11,340 nt of DNA, taken from Candidatus Roizmanbacteria bacterium (lineage in GTDB: Bacteria > Patescibacteriota > Microgenomatia > UBA1406 > GWC2-37-13). The notes under the pieces are model-generated. The model was not told the origin of the DNA. It searched no databases and saw nothing but the letters and a program-made list of their open reading frames with translations. A program made the translations under genes and the position numbers. The stretch is from NCBI GenBank assembly GCA_024653985.1, contig JANLIS010000037.1:1-11340 (forward strand), given 5' to 3'. Below, piece by piece: positions 1 to 10,443 of the stretch; within the stretch, counting starts at the first letter, position 1, and each line of letters begins with the position of its first letter.

Positions 1-894
1 TTTGAATATTTTAAAGGCAAATACGGCGATAAATTCCGCTTCTACGAGGGAGATCTAACAACCGACCTATCATCTGTCTTCGAAAAGGAATCCCAGACTG
101 GCGCCCCATTTGACGCAGTAATTCACTATGCTGCATCTTGCCTGGTTGATGAATCCATGAAAAAACCAGGAAAATATTTTATCAATAATGTCGGCAGTAC
201 TTCAATTTTACTTTCATTGATGAACAAGTTTGAGGTAAAAAATATTGTCTTCTCATCAACATGTGCCGTTTACGGTGAGGCCGAATATTATCCGATCGAC
301 GAGAAGCACCCACTAAATCCAACGACCCCCTACGGAGCATCCAAAAAAATGGCCGAAGAGGTCATTCAGTGGTATGGAAAATTAAAAGGGTTCAACTATA
401 TGATCCTTCGATATTTTAATGTTTGCGGTGCATCTGAAGATGGTTTGGTCGGTGATTCAAAAAAACCCTCTTCCCTACTAGTTCAGAATGCCGTTCGTGG
501 AGCGCTTGGAATAGAAAAATTTTATCTTACCTGTCCGGAGGTTGACACCCCAGATAAGACTCCGATCCGAGATTACATTGACGTGGTTGATCTTAACCTT
601 GCCCATTTGAAAGCTTTGGAATATCTTATTAAAAATAAAAAGAGCGAAATAATAAATTTAGGAACAGGTACAGGCAGTTCCGTCCTAGAAGTTGTTAACC
701 AAGTAAAAAAATTGACCGGTGTGGAAATTCCGATTGAAAAAGCCAATACAAGACAAGGTGATGACGCCAAAAAAATTGCCAATATTGAAAAAGCAGAAAA
801 AATTTTGGGTTGGAAACCAAGCAAAACAATTGAAGACTCCATAAGGTCTCTCATTACCTGGTATAAAGTTCATCCGAACGGTTGGGAAAAATGA
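1..894 (+). CDS. galE: UDP-glucose 4-epimerase, 5'-truncated by window start
   Basis: Extended-SDR epimerase that interconverts UDP-glucose and UDP-galactose using bound NAD in the cytoplasm. The frame is open from base 1, so the gene begins upstream; about 297 residues are visible and, against the usual ~330-340, some 35-45 N-terminal residues including the Gly-rich NAD motif are missing. The internal ATG at 157 is not the start, because the family motif IHYAASCLVDES lies upstream of it. Visible hallmarks are SSTCAVYG with the catalytic Ser (fragment residue 86), YGASK with catalytic Tyr111 and Lys115 (25 residues after the Ser, as in E. coli GalE), then RYFNVCGA, RDYIDVVDL, NLGTGTGSSVLEV and a late GW-P motif. 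It ends in TGA, whose last base is also the discriminator position of the opposite-strand tRNA. It supplies UDP-hexose for the glycan genes that follow. The family call is secure; UDP-GlcNAc specificity cannot be excluded. Confidence 0.95.
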   Translation, partial: FEYFKGKYGDKFRFYEGDLTTDLSSVFEKESQTGAPFDAVIHYAASCLVDESMKKPGKYFINNVGSTSILLSLMNKFEVKNIVFSSTCAVYGEAEYYPIDEKHPLNPTTPYGASKKMAEEVIQWYGKLKGFNYMILRYFNVCGASEDGLVGDSKKPSSLLVQNAVRGALGIEKFYLTCPEVDTPDKTPIRDYIDVVDLNLAHLKALEYLIKNKKSEIINLGTGTGSSVLEVVNQVKKLTGVEIPIEKANTRQGDDAKKIANIEKAEKILGWKPSKTIEDSIRSLITWYKVHPNGWEK

Positions 895-964
895 GCGGGA
901 TACGGGAATCGAACCCGTCCCCTCTGCTTGGAAAGCAGATATTCTACCGATGAACTAATCCCGC
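894..964 (-). tRNA. tRNA-Gly (anticodon UCC)
   Basis: The reverse complement folds into a complete cloverleaf: acceptor GCGGGAT paired with ATCCCGC, D stem GTTC/GAAT (one G-U), anticodon stem TCTGC/GCAGA with loop TTTCCAA (anticodon TCC at 34-36), a short variable loop, and T stem ACGGG/CCCGT with loop TTCGATT. The discriminator base is U73, as usual for bacterial tRNA-Gly. It reads GGA codons. CCA is not encoded (the next bases are CAT), so the 3' end must be added by a nucleotidyltransferase. The discriminator position is the last base of the galE TGA on the other strand, so the two genes converge with a 1-bp overlap. A -10 TATAAT lies 9 nt upstream on the minus strand. Confidence 0.96.
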
Positions 965-7540: not shown

Positions 7541-7729
7541 ATGAACAGCGTTGTTTATGTTTGTGTAGGTACATGTAAGGCAGAGATCTCGGAAGAACAG
7601 TACAAAGGTGGTTTGACCAAGTGTGGCGGCGAAGGCTGTACCCTTAAAGGTCATGAATTTGAAAAGAGAATGAAGTGTAATCAGTGCGGAGCCATTTTTA
7701 AGGAAGGCGAAGCGCATTCACATCAATAA
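7541..7729 (+). CDS. Small Cys-rich zinc-ribbon-like protein, unknown function
   Basis: A 62-residue protein with six cysteines in three pairs: C8-x3-C12, C28-x4-C33 and C46-x2-C49, plus His38, His59 and His61. The C-x2-C with a following CG (KCNQCGAIF) looks like one half of a zinc ribbon, and the spacing allows one or two zinc sites. The acidic, His-ending tail (EGEAHSHQ) could also bind metal. The frame is open upstream to an ATG at 7364, but that lies inside the divergent GT-C-like gene, so the ATG at 7541 is preferred; the protein begins MNSVVYVCVGTC. A -10-like TTAAAT (7527-7532) is weak. Its last 7 bp overlap the end of the convergent DUF2142 gene. I do not recognise a named family; DNA/RNA binding or metal handling are guesses. 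Confidence 0.75.
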   Translation: MNSVVYVCVGTCKAEISEEQYKGGLTKCGGEGCTLKGHEFEKRMKCNQCGAIFKEGEAHSHQ

Positions 7730-9102
7730 TATCTATTGAAAACACTGAAAAAAGTAGCTGATATTAGATAGATAACTACCAACACTGATAATATATTGGT
7801 GAAAATAGGACTGACTTTAAATGAGATTTTTTTGTGGAAATTATTCATGTTTAGGTAGTATTTAATTTGAGCGATCAGCAAAATTATAAACGGAACAAAA
7901 GGAATAAAGTATCTACCTTGAACTCCATGAGCGACTATCGTATTCTTCTCTGTATTAAATACAAAAGCCAAAAGAAGAATAAATAAATATGAAACAAAAA
8001 GTGCGATGAAAAGTAAAATATTTTTCTTTTTGCTAAGTATATATTTCCCAACGAAGTTAGTATTAAAAATTACATAAATAAAAAAAAGCCCGTAAAGCAG
8101 ATAACTCAATGGATCAAGTCCGTACTCCAGCCATCCGAAGATCCCTATAAGACTTTGTAAATAAAAACCAGAACGTTGGATTGTAGTGGCAGCTAATACA
8201 TTAATAATATTTAAATTAGATAGCAAAAAGGTTATCTGTCTTAATGGATTAATCTCTGAGTTTGCTAGTGCAGTTTGCAGATCAAAAAATCCGTTTAATT
8301 TTGATATAAAAAGAAATGATCCAAATATCAGACTTGAAAATATCATCGGCTTTATTTCAAAAGGAATTAAAAATAAAAATAAAATGAAAGCCTCATACCC
8401 TATCTTCTTGCTCAGCAAAAATAAAAACAAAACAAAAAACATTTTAAAATATTTTGTAGGGGCGTGATTCATCACGTCCTTTACTCGATTATTCACAATT
8501 AGTGTAAAAAATGTTAAACCAAGCATGATATGGATCATGTCATAACTCAAAGAAGATATCTGATGTAGGGTCATCGGTAAGGCAAAAGTAAAAAGAAGTA
8601 TAAGTTTATAATTCTTAGTGATCTTTTTAAATAAATATAAAAACCAAAGATATCCGAGGACGGCCATAAACAATCTTCCAAGATATAGAGAAACAACAGG
8701 GTTTAGTTTAATTAGCGAACTTATGGTTAAGACAAATGCTTGTGGAAGATAGGAAACGATTGGGAAACTACAAAGGTGATTAATATTAAAATTAATTTTC
8801 TGATTATTTTGTTTCGTGAAAAAAAGGTCTTTTAAAAACATTTGGACAGGCAGTTTACCTTTTCCATGAGTTAACAAATCAAGATAAGGCGTTTTAATGA
8901 AATCAACATATTTCTTTTCGATAGGCATCGTATTGTTAGATTTTTTATCGCAGGATACAAATCCTTTACTTATTATCAATGATTGTTCAAAGTGCGCCTG
9001 TTCATCAGGTTTCTGAAAAGGAGGGACGAGGAAGGTAAAGATAAAAAGTTGAATTGGAATTAGTATATACAATATCATTTTGTTGAGAGAGCGCTTAAAC
9101 AT
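7723..9102 (-). CDS. DUF2142 family multi-span membrane protein
   Basis: A 459-residue membrane protein with about 10-12 helices. Family signatures are VPPFQKPDEQAHF (26-38) in the first extracytoplasmic loop, FALPMTLHQISSLSYDM with the conserved Asp after a helix, and VQGRYFIPFVPF (394-405). DUF2142 members are found in polysaccharide clusters and are thought to be GT-C-like enzymes, the PDE-x2-H loop being the candidate catalytic site; this role is inferred. The ATG is 8 nt after TATAAT, with no Shine-Dalgarno. The upstream promoter region is formed by the left heptamer array of the adjoining four-helix-bundle cassette. A palindromic repeat is read in frame at residues 207-216 (VKDVMNHAPT) in a loop between helices. 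It ends in TGA, overlapping the zinc-ribbon gene by 7 bp. Confidence 0.85.
   Translation of the reverse strand: MFKRSLNKMILYILIPIQLFIFTFLVPPFQKPDEQAHFEQSLIISKGFVSCDKKSNNTMPIEKKYVDFIKTPYLDLLTHGKGKLPVQMFLKDLFFTKQNNQKINFNINHLCSFPIVSYLPQAFVLTISSLIKLNPVVSLYLGRLFMAVLGYLWFLYLFKKITKNYKLILLFTFALPMTLHQISSLSYDMIHIMLGLTFFTLIVNNRVKDVMNHAPTKYFKMFFVLFLFLLSKKIGYEAFILFLFLIPFEIKPMIFSSLIFGSFLFISKLNGFFDLQTALANSEINPLRQITFLLSNLNIINVLAATTIQRSGFYLQSLIGIFGWLEYGLDPLSYLLYGLFFIYVIFNTNFVGKYILSKKKNILLFIALFVSYLFILLLAFVFNTEKNTIVAHGVQGRYFIPFVPFIILLIAQIKYYLNMNNFHKKISFKVSPIFTNILSVLVVIYLISATFFSVFNRYY
8456..8484 (-). repeat. In-frame palindromic element within the DUF2142 gene
   Basis: A hairpin centred on TTCA (8468-8471) with stem GGGGCGTGA against TCACGTCCT (about 9 pairs with two G-U wobbles), extending to GTA/TAC ends with one bulge. 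It is a GC-rich island in an AT-rich gene. On the coding strand it is read as residues 207-216, in a loop between membrane helices. The sequence has the look of a dispersed REP-like repeat. Confidence 0.6.
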
Positions 9103-9110
9103 TTAATAAT

Positions 9111-9116
9111 ATTATA
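9111..9116 (-). promoter_or_regulatory. -10 box of the DUF2142 gene
   Basis: TATAAT on the minus strand ends 8 nt before the ATG at 9102. Its first T coincides with the last base of the fifth heptamer of the adjoining repeat array, so the array occupies the -35 and spacer region. Confidence 0.65.
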
Positions 9117-9150
9117 AAGTATCTTGTATCTAGTATTCAGTATTTAGTAT
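9116..9150 (-). repeat. Left heptamer array (five units) of the four-helix-bundle cassette
   Basis: On the minus strand five consecutive 7-mers read ATACTAA, ATACTGA, ATACTAG, ATACAAG, ATACTTT. The array starts at the last base of the four-helix-bundle stop codon (TAA, 9152-9150) and ends on the -10 box of the DUF2142 gene. Positions 9124-9150 are inverted relative to 9536-9562 with 25 of 27 bases matching. Confidence 0.85.
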
Positions 9151-9530
9151 TAAGATTTAGGGTTATGTTTTGTTGATGAAGATCTTATTAATCCATTAAT
9201 TAATTTATGTATTTCCACTGATTCTTTGCCTACCTTTTGAAAGATGTTGTTTTCAATATAACCTAGATCACGAGCCAATATTAGTTGATTTTGTATTTCA
9301 GCTAAGGATCCAATAGACATAAAATAAAAATGGGACTTATCTATTGACGTTCGCCGATAGAATCCTTCAGATATATTTGAAGTGATAGAGACAGACGCTC
9401 TTCTTAGTTGATCTACCAAACTATATTTTTCTTCTCTTGGAAAATTATTAGTTAATTTATATATTTGCAATACAAATTTATGAGCTTTTTGCCAAACGAT
9501 CAAATCTGTAAATGATTGTATTTTTCCCAT
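9150..9530 (-). CDS. Four-helix-bundle protein (S23/IVP family)
   Basis: A 126-residue helical protein of the family first known as the ORF in intervening sequences of 23S rRNA genes (TIGR02436-type, 'S23 ribosomal protein'); Avd of diversity-generating retroelements shares the fold. Signature elements in order are SFTDLIVWQKAH (6-17), NNFPREEKYSLVDQLRRASVSITSNISEGF (about 28-57) and a third region beginning FYFMSIGSLAEIQNQL, followed by a fourth helix and a basic, Ser-rich tail. Length fits the family (about 115-130). The stop is immediately followed by the left heptamer array, and the ATG is 5 bp from the right one, with no Shine-Dalgarno. No rRNA, reverse transcriptase or template/variable repeats are near. 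The biochemical role is unknown; nucleic-acid binding has been proposed for the family. Confidence 0.92.
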   Translation of the reverse strand: MGKIQSFTDLIVWQKAHKFVLQIYKLTNNFPREEKYSLVDQLRRASVSITSNISEGFYRRTSIDKSHFYFMSIGSLAEIQNQLILARDLGYIENNIFQKVGKESVEIHKLINGLIRSSSTKHNPKS

Positions 9531-9535
9531 GCTAT

Positions 9536-9563
9536 ATACTACATACTAAATACTAGATACAAA
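9536..9563 (+). repeat. Right heptamer array (four units) of the four-helix-bundle cassette
   Basis: Four consecutive 7-mers ATACTAC, ATACTAA, ATACTAG, ATACAAA on the plus strand, inverted relative to the left array. On the minus strand, upstream of the four-helix-bundle ATG, the same bases read as repeated TAGTAT hexamers, which resemble -10 boxes. Confidence 0.85.
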
Positions 9564-9595
9564 GCTGTCCACCGCTTATAACCTACAAAACAACT

Positions 9596-9663: not shown

Positions 9664-10443
9664 ATGAAAGTCATTATTCTCTGTGGTGGGACAGGAACAA
9701 GGCTAAAAGAGGAGACAGAATATAAACCAAAGCCAATGGTTCACATAGGTAATCAACCTATTCTCTGGCATATAATGAAAATCTATGCCTCATATGGTTA
9801 CAACGAGTTTATACTTGCCTTGGGTTATAAAGCTGACTACATCAAAGATTATTTTTTAAATCAAAAAGCTTTTACTTCCGATTTTACTTTGGAAACCCGT
9901 CATCACAAAACAAAATTTTATCTTGAGGATCGTCCCGAGGTAGATAATTTTAAGATAACATTCGTCGATACTGGACTTGAAACCTTACCAGGTGAGCGTA
10001 TTTTACGTTGTCAAAAATATATTCCAAAAAATGATAAATATTTTATGGTCACATACGGAGATGGAGTTTCTGACGTCAATATCGATACTTTGGTTAAATT
10101 TCACAAAAAACAAAAGACGATCGGCACTTTGACCGGCATCCACCCCAAATTCAAATTTGGAGCAGTCAAAGTAAATAAAGAAAACAAAGTGACAGAATTT
10201 TCCGAAAAACCGATCCTTCAAGATTGGGTAAATGGCGGATATATGATCTTTGATAAAAGATATTTTGAATATCAAAAACCTGGAGAGCTTGAGCACGCAG
10301 CGTTAAAAAGATTATCTGACATCAATCAACTATCCCTATATAAACATGAAGGGTTTTGGTTTGCGGTTGATACAAACAAAGAATACGAAGATTTAAATAA
10401 GATTTGGAAAAGCGGCAAGGCACCTTGGAAAATATGGAAATGA
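9664..10443 (+). CDS. rfbF: Glucose-1-phosphate cytidylyltransferase
   Basis: Makes CDP-glucose and pyrophosphate from CTP and glucose 1-phosphate in the cytoplasm, first step of the CDP-dideoxyhexose pathway. At 259 residues it matches the family length (about 257). It starts with the nucleotidyltransferase motif LCGGTGTRL (6-14), then KPKPMV with Lys23, and IGNQPILWHIMKIYASYG, which is diagnostic of RfbF rather than RfbA or GalU. YGDGVSDV (131-138) supplies the metal-binding Asp133, followed by GIHPKFKFGAV, FSEKP and VNGGYMIF, and a C-terminal GFWFAVDTNKEYEDLN. The ATG is 7 nt after TAGAAT. Its TGA overlaps the ATG of rfbG (ATGA), a sign of translational coupling, and the two enzymes catalyse consecutive steps. 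Confidence 0.95.
   Translation: MKVIILCGGTGTRLKEETEYKPKPMVHIGNQPILWHIMKIYASYGYNEFILALGYKADYIKDYFLNQKAFTSDFTLETRHHKTKFYLEDRPEVDNFKITFVDTGLETLPGERILRCQKYIPKNDKYFMVTYGDGVSDVNIDTLVKFHKKQKTIGTLTGIHPKFKFGAVKVNKENKVTEFSEKPILQDWVNGGYMIFDKRYFEYQKPGELEHAALKRLSDINQLSLYKHEGFWFAVDTNKEYEDLNKIWKSGKAPWKIWK

Follow-up and report, generated by a model that had tools for sequence, protein, structure and literature searches.

Analysis of an 11,340-nucleotide stretch of Candidatus Roizmanbacteria DNA (hereafter the window), together with related genomes, plasmids and loci, suggests that a four-helix-bundle gene and the inverted heptamer arrays bracketing it probably make up a small mobile DNA element (approximately 0.4-0.5 kb) of a widespread family, the protein of which putatively reads its own array type. 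The original prediction of a free-standing mobile relative of the rRNA intervening sequence (IVS) proteins, with the arrays as part of the unit, is supported by matched arms, by a correspondence between protein and array and by empty sites.

The gene (126 amino acids, PF05635 23S_rRNA_IVP / TIGR02436) occupies positions 9150..9530 on the minus strand and was assigned by profile matches, AlphaFold2 and Foldseek. The window belongs to a 0.82-Mb draft genome, and the neighbouring genes code for a DUF2142 membrane protein (7723..9102, minus strand) and a nucleotidyl transferase (9664..10443, plus strand; named rfbF earlier), the latter identified by profile match and congener comparison. The array at the 3' end in gene sense (9117..9151, plus strand) consists of five 7-mers of the form NWGTATY (AAGTATC, TTGTATC, TAGTATT, CAGTATT and TAGTATT), the fifth of which overlaps the stop codon at 9150-9152. 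The 5' array (9535..9562, minus strand) consists of four 7-mers of the form TWGTATN (TTGTATC, TAGTATT, TAGTATG and TAGTATA) and is separated from the ATG start codon (9528-9530) by four bases. The earlier counts of five and four units stood, and the spacing before the start codon is corrected from five bases to four. A repeat search of the window found inverted arms at 9124-9150 and 9536-9562 that are 27 nt long and 93% complementary. At up to one mismatch TAGTATNTAGTAT matched nine times in the window, seven of them inside the two arrays, whereas 200 dinucleotide shuffles gave 0.09 matches on average and never more than 2; the arrays are therefore far beyond chance, and inverted heptamer arrays around the gene are confirmed. 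The left array sits directly upstream of the DUF2142 start, and the proposal that it forms the upstream part of the DUF2142 promoter was not borne out: the interval from array to start contains a TATAAT that also occurs in the empty sites of two congeners, and on the minus strand a promoter consensus scan listed no site from the left array to DUF2142. Another congener (L091) likewise has a PF05635 copy, here with arrays of AAAAGTC type, upstream of a gene, the start of which matches the same nucleotidyl transferase.

PF05635 is a widespread and structurally solved family that, to our knowledge, has no assigned function. The window protein matched PF05635 with an E value of 1.4e-37 (128.5 bits; cut-off 33.8) and TIGR02436 with an E value of 8.2e-35, and among named genomes Candidatus Roizmanbacteria gave the best match, the best-matching segment being 60% identical. 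Aligning the window protein with 37 relatives showed N52, E55 and E78 to be invariant. Foldseek analysis of the AlphaFold2 model (mean pLDDT 95.4) revealed 2gsc, a Xanthomonas protein, as the best match (TM 0.86, E value 8.2e-8). The structures nearest to the model are 2gsc and 2rld, both of which were deposited as five chains, and Avd (4dwl, 8ub7) comes next. By analogy with these solved relatives, the window protein probably forms a pentameric ring. No recognizable transposase domain was found in the window protein, the matches being PF05635, bAvd and related models only, and PF01797 (Y1/HUH) gave no match. The predicted fold is held in common with Avd of diversity-generating retroelements. 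The window protein differs in scoring below the cut-off of the Avd equivalog NF033474 (36 bits against 80) and below that of the bAvd model (37.6 bits against 40), and no reverse transcriptase was found among the nine main window ORFs scanned. The relation of the four-helix-bundle family to Avd is noted in PMC10053308.

Analysis of relatives revealed that bracketing arrays are common in this family. A profile search of genomes gave more than 150 PF05635 matches, from which 110 loci, mainly those listed first, were taken; among the matches listed, 44 of 57 genomes (the window's own and relatives) carry PF05635 genes, up to 13 per genome, and none of 14 control genomes does. For the arm comparison, 100 nt were taken upstream of the start and 100 nt downstream of the stop in the 107 of 115 distinct PF05635 genes with flanks of at least 60 nt and a protein of at least 100 amino acids. 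The mean arm score was 16.0 for a copy's own 5' and 3' flanks and 7.7 for mismatched pairs; the own-arm score exceeded the 95th percentile of its row and column in 86 of the 107 copies and the 99th in 62. A score of at least 12 was reached by 82 of the 107 copies in the CPR lineage and by none of 39 neighbour genes; the neighbour set first numbered 43, and the four genes scoring at least 12 were all PF05635 genes under a second locus name. The shuffle threshold was passed by 75 of the 107 copies in inverted orientation and by 17 in direct orientation, and direct-orientation arrays are visible by eye in a few copies (L016, L126). Relatives devoid of flanking arrays, named beforehand as one of two findings that would refute the proposal, were mostly not seen, although clear arm complementarity is absent in 25 of the 107 copies.

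A clear period was found in 76 of the 107 copies compared with seven of 43 neighbour genes, some of these seven being PF05635 genes themselves. Period 7 accounts for 46 of the 76, periods of 8, 9 and 10 are also seen, and 31 copies are without a clear period. Period-7 arrays have a median of six units, six and five being the commonest counts, with a long tail, so a match between five units per array and a pentamer is not sharp and was rejected. When unit order was shuffled, 10 of 47 elements beat 95% of the shuffles (mean z 1.4), which gives modest support to the arms being in-register copies of each other. Breadth outside the CPR set was assessed with a single-protein scan with 22 loci and 43 plasmid records. 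Among plasmids and genome contigs (31 gene rows, one of them from a CPR contig), 18 of 28 scorable copies reach an arm score of 12; phages are represented by three matching records only, all annotated as Avd.

The repeat sequence varies between copies and the two arms within one copy match; by eye, the units in different copies are TAGTATN, AAAAGTC, GTTAACGN, ATAAAGTCC, TAGATGC and GAATTCT. Comparison of proteins and arrays for 129 genes revealed that the array type follows the protein lineage. Arrays are shared by under 1% of pairs with protein identity below 0.4 and by 25%, 41% and 95% of pairs at identities of 0.5-0.6, 0.6-0.7 and above 0.7, respectively. Because distant pairs predominate, the rank correlation across all pairs is small (rho 0.056; 17 of 500 permutations gave at least this value). 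Among 109 pairs with more than 50% protein identity and common arrays, the outer flanks are unrelated in 99, related in nine and too short in one, and some array-sharing pairs span different phyla. The Trichormus plasmid copy (L127), for example, has by array score the array type of Bacteroidetes (L136) and Gracilimonas (L147), at 70% protein identity. Common arrays in unrelated surroundings indicate that array and gene are one unit that has moved to new places, including across phyla. That the protein recognizes the heptamers, raised as a possibility in the original prediction, is made likely by this correspondence, which is one of sequence.

Comparison of occupied and empty sites at nine places revealed exact 5-nt direct repeats at three, all in cyanobacterial plasmids, partial repeats at two, no visible repeat at two and unresolvable ends at two. 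At the window site, the DUF2142 and nucleotidyl transferase genes adjoin without the element in two congeners (L156, L159), with gaps of 34 and 32 nt compared with 561 nt in the window; these empty sites also lack approximately 90 nt lying outside the 5' array in the window, and they are too diverged for any duplication to be visible. The second site, in a type IV secretion system (T4SS) operon of cyanobacterial plasmids, is occupied in Trichormus and Scytonema (L127, L166) and empty, at approximately 97% identity, in Aulosira, Nostoc linckia and Fremyella (L161-L163); GTAAT flanks the inserted unit on either side, and a single copy of it is present where the site is empty. Inspection of this gap by eye in three further loci showed a truncated copy (L164), a gene-less hairpin (L165) and no insertion (L170). 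The first junction of a Nostoc operon is occupied in L333, L123 and L334 and empty in L329-L332 and L130; TTCTA flanks both sides in L333 and L334 (with one base fewer on the right in L333) and is mutated in L123, with the caveat that TTCT is also the end of the array. Two PF05635 genes are themselves interrupted by gene-less units: one of GGGAAAA type in L332 by a 296-bp unit with GGGAAAA-type arrays and ATTAC on both sides, and one in L334 with no visible duplication. The cas10-cmr3 site is occupied in Picosynechococcus PCC 7003 and empty in PCC 7002 and Synechocystis PCC 6714, its ends not being resolvable. Four of five repeat letters (TAGT) are present at nrdB-nrdA, and three (ATG) at the second Nostoc junction in L130, where approximately 35 nt after the 3' array are present in neither array nor empty site. 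At the ninth site, a gene-less unit stands before the first gene in L329-L331, L333 and L334 and is absent in L123, L332 and L130, with no clear duplication. Where an insertion is best resolved, a few bases at most separate the arrays from its ends; the extra stretches in L130 and in the window mean that the ends of the unit are not settled everywhere.

Further arrangements were observed in these surroundings. The cas6-cas4 gap of cyanobacterial plasmids (L126, L328, L335) is filled in one of three ways, by a PF05635 gene carrying AAAAGCT arrays, by a PF05635 gene with very long GGTGACA arrays upstream or by an AATTACG array alone, and we propose to read it as a hot spot or as a case of array replacement. 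Gene-less units are nested within gene-less units in L329, L330, L331 and L333, and in L330 and L333 different cores lie between the arrays at the same insertion point.

Analysis of the region upstream of the gene revealed a 24-nt motif (TTTGTAGGTTATAAGCGGTGGACA, 9566..9589, minus strand) directly outside the 5' array that occurs genome-wide in the genus. Searched as TTTGTAGNNTATARKCNNTTGACW (window 9566-9589, L171-L200), it was present in all 20 genus genomes searched, with 1 to 31 matches each and none for a reversed-pattern control, and its variants differ between species. As part of the element it was rejected, being genus-wide and more frequent than the gene. A promoter-like pair on the minus strand (9543..9571) consists of TGGACA (9571-9566), 17 nt and TAGTAT (9548-9543), the second hexamer lying inside the 5' array; with nine of 12 consensus matches in a region that has seven sites against 4.3 expected, the pair is weak alone, and its spacing agrees with a weak TANNNT conservation. 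It is possible that the 5' array provides the -10 hexamer behind the motif's -35 in the window. The motif precedes approximately 30 PF05635 copies (30 of 36 instances in the loci examined, at up to four mismatches). The genes behind it include RecA, RadC, Mg-chelatase (ComM-like), Trp repressor, Y1 (IS200-like) transposase and PF05635, one or two of each named by Pfam and the others by look. The motif-bearing genes are possibly a regulon, and their names at most suggest that expression follows DNA uptake or repair.

Bracketing by inverted repeats was also found for three of 17 other genes behind the motif, so it is not unique to the PF05635 protein. All three are Trp-repressor-like (L177, L183, L198), with arm scores of 21 to 30 and, in L183 and L198, repeats of ATCGATTA type; no bracketing repeats were found for the Trp-repressor-like genes of L171, L178 and L193 behind the motif. 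A second kind of single-gene element may therefore exist.

A model in which the arrays are operators, through which the protein controls its own gene and a regulon in place, would explain why the arrays hug start and stop, why single arrays occur elsewhere in the genome and why the 5' array may supply a -10 hexamer. This model is contradicted by the empty sites with short repeats, by insertions inside genes and by like copies in unrelated surroundings, and we give it hardly any weight. Regulation may exist in addition to mobility.

Arrays also occur without the gene. The window's genome contains gene-less TAGTATN hairpins on two contigs (C24, C33) and single arrays on two others (C35, C95). 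A scan of 459 kb of CPR sequence revealed 33 hairpins, 17 of them periodic (one counted twice owing to the overlap of L002 and L093), some at PF05635 genes. Among 29 TAGTAT loci, a PF05635 gene was found in one, six gene-less loci contain a second, inverted array no more than 200 nt away, and the remainder appear mostly to be single arrays; among 30 GTTAACG loci, two have a PF05635 gene in the stretch. These loci are the first places listed per genome, and some overlap. GTTAACG arrays were present in all six genomes that carry the corresponding gene subfamily (identity of at least 63%) compared with 12 of 51 without it (Mann-Whitney p 2.4e-6), with 3 to 108 matches in the six cognate genomes, the gene's own arrays included; array counts per genome also include overlapping registers. 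The link is weaker for TAGTAT arrays, which were present in five of six genomes judged cognate by eye compared with 14 of 51 others, and one genome (G039) has 14 TAGTAT matches and no matching gene. Loss of the gene, incomplete drafts or another mobilizing factor could account for TAGTAT arrays without a gene. The original prediction would have been refuted by arrays that are common without the gene and unrelated to it; the former is the case, and the GTTAACG comparison argues against the latter.

The frequency of such arrays (28 of 29 TAGTAT and 28 of 30 GTTAACG loci, partly overlapping, lack a PF05635 gene) is what would be expected if a different transposase, such as an IS200-like Y1 enzyme, moved the arrays as miniature elements or REP-like hairpins, with the gene a passenger or regulator captured between two arrays. 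Y1 transposases are present in 27 of 37 genomes, and a promoter motif is common to Y1 and PF05635 genes. A passenger would not need an array type that tracks its subfamily, however, and among Y1 genes with scorable flanks an arm score of 12 was reached in only two of 11 and one of four cases, which by eye are palindromes rather than heptamer arrays. We regard this explanation as rather unlikely, though it deserves to be kept in view beside that of an element addressed by its own protein.

Whether the arms are maintained in DNA or RNA was judged from their mismatches, since a selected stem in the sense transcript should leave more G.U than A.C pairs. The two were equal (78 and 76, respectively, at 2261 aligned positions in 62 elements; p 0.94), so pairing in sense RNA does not seem to maintain the arms, and an RNA stem as the force keeping them alike was rejected. 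Our analysis favours, from sequence comparison, arms shaped by DNA-level processes and leaves only protein family and layout of the IVS analogy. With Rfam at gathering thresholds, no rRNA was found in the window, only a tRNA gene (894-964, minus strand, 66 bits), and the window plus 20 loci gave tRNAs only.

An IVS-like RNA element, the arms of which pair in the transcript into a stem that RNase III cleaves, allowing the element to persist through its removal from RNA, would have the same protein family and complementary ends as the 23S rRNA IVSs of Coxiella and Leptospira, where an S23/IVP ORF of PF05635 type lies between such ends (PMC4990558, which also reports the idea that IVSs are mobile elements or remnants of transposition). 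Such an element is also brought to mind by the PF05635 family in rRNA-gene insertions of CPR bacteria at scattered sites (PMC11270868). The equal mismatch counts, the lack of rRNA in the window and the existence of single and direct-orientation arrays all speak against it; the IVS-like stem of the original prediction is not supported, and we consider the RNA reading very unlikely. The window copy resembles an IVS in its PF05635-type ORF and complementary ends (27 nt, 93%) and differs in its location, the neighbours being DUF2142 and nucleotidyl transferase genes rather than rRNA. The elements described here further differ from IVSs in having ends made of tandem 7- to 10-mers with subfamily-specific sequence, no sign of selected RNA pairing, short direct repeats at some insertions and gene-less relatives.

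In the mechanism that we propose for the mobile element, the protein, probably a pentamer, would bind DNA made of its own type of tandem unit, perhaps when this is single-stranded at replication forks or in the course of DNA uptake, and would bring the two inverted arrays together, whereby its own element and gene-less units could be copied or moved. The strand chemistry would come from an unrecognized activity of the protein, or from enzymes of the host or of other mobile elements. A more far-reaching and tentative proposal, which we hold as possible rather than probable, is a new class of transposable element in which specificity comes from a pentameric four-helix-bundle protein that has no known catalytic motif, a lineage-specific tandem 'address' of 7- to 10-nt units, typically repeated some five or six times at both ends, marks the element, and the dispersed heptamers of Cyanobacteria, CPR bacteria and others are footprints and non-autonomous passengers. 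If so, the four-helix-bundle genes in CRISPR-cas operons would be hitchhikers, not CRISPR components.

No report of PF05635 genes bracketed by inverted heptamer arrays was found in open-licence PMC literature, among the matches listed, by title and beginning of abstract, which is no proof of absence. The available parts of PMC4853749, PMC5524665 and PMC8700078 contain nothing on arrays. The TAACTGA repeats of Beggiatoaceae are intergenic tandem 7-mers for which spread by some mobile element was considered (PMC4679880); in the part of that paper available, no associated PF05635-family gene is named, and 'four helix', 'S23' and 'intervening' are absent from the main text. Eighteen IVP genes in cas loci are described in PMC3936711. 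Both these and the presence of PF05635 in rRNA insertions (PMC11270868) would be explained by a mobile unit whose repeat address is specific to its protein. Such a unit would likewise explain the erratic distribution of PF05635, intergenic heptamer repeats would gain a candidate source, and the protein-array correspondence makes DNA recognition by the family directly testable.

Short tandemly repeated repetitive sequences (STRRs) of cyanobacteria are tandem 7-mers in intergenic regions, and the likeness to the arrays described here is one of form only. Miniature inverted-repeat elements (MITEs) and insertion sequences have terminal inverted repeats, short target duplications and non-autonomous derivatives. 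The present elements share terminal inverted repeats and non-autonomous derivatives with them, have exact 5-nt direct repeats at three of the nine sites compared and differ in that their ends are tandem arrays varying by copy and their sole ORF is no known transposase. In REP/RAYT systems, a single gene is bracketed by inverted repeats and gene-less copies are dispersed in the genome. Unlike these, the window protein lacks Y1/HUH and its repeats are tandem heptamers, not one short palindrome; the likeness lies in a gene between inverted repeats accompanied by dispersed gene-less copies and, in the window's genus, in the promoter motif common to IS200-like and PF05635 genes.
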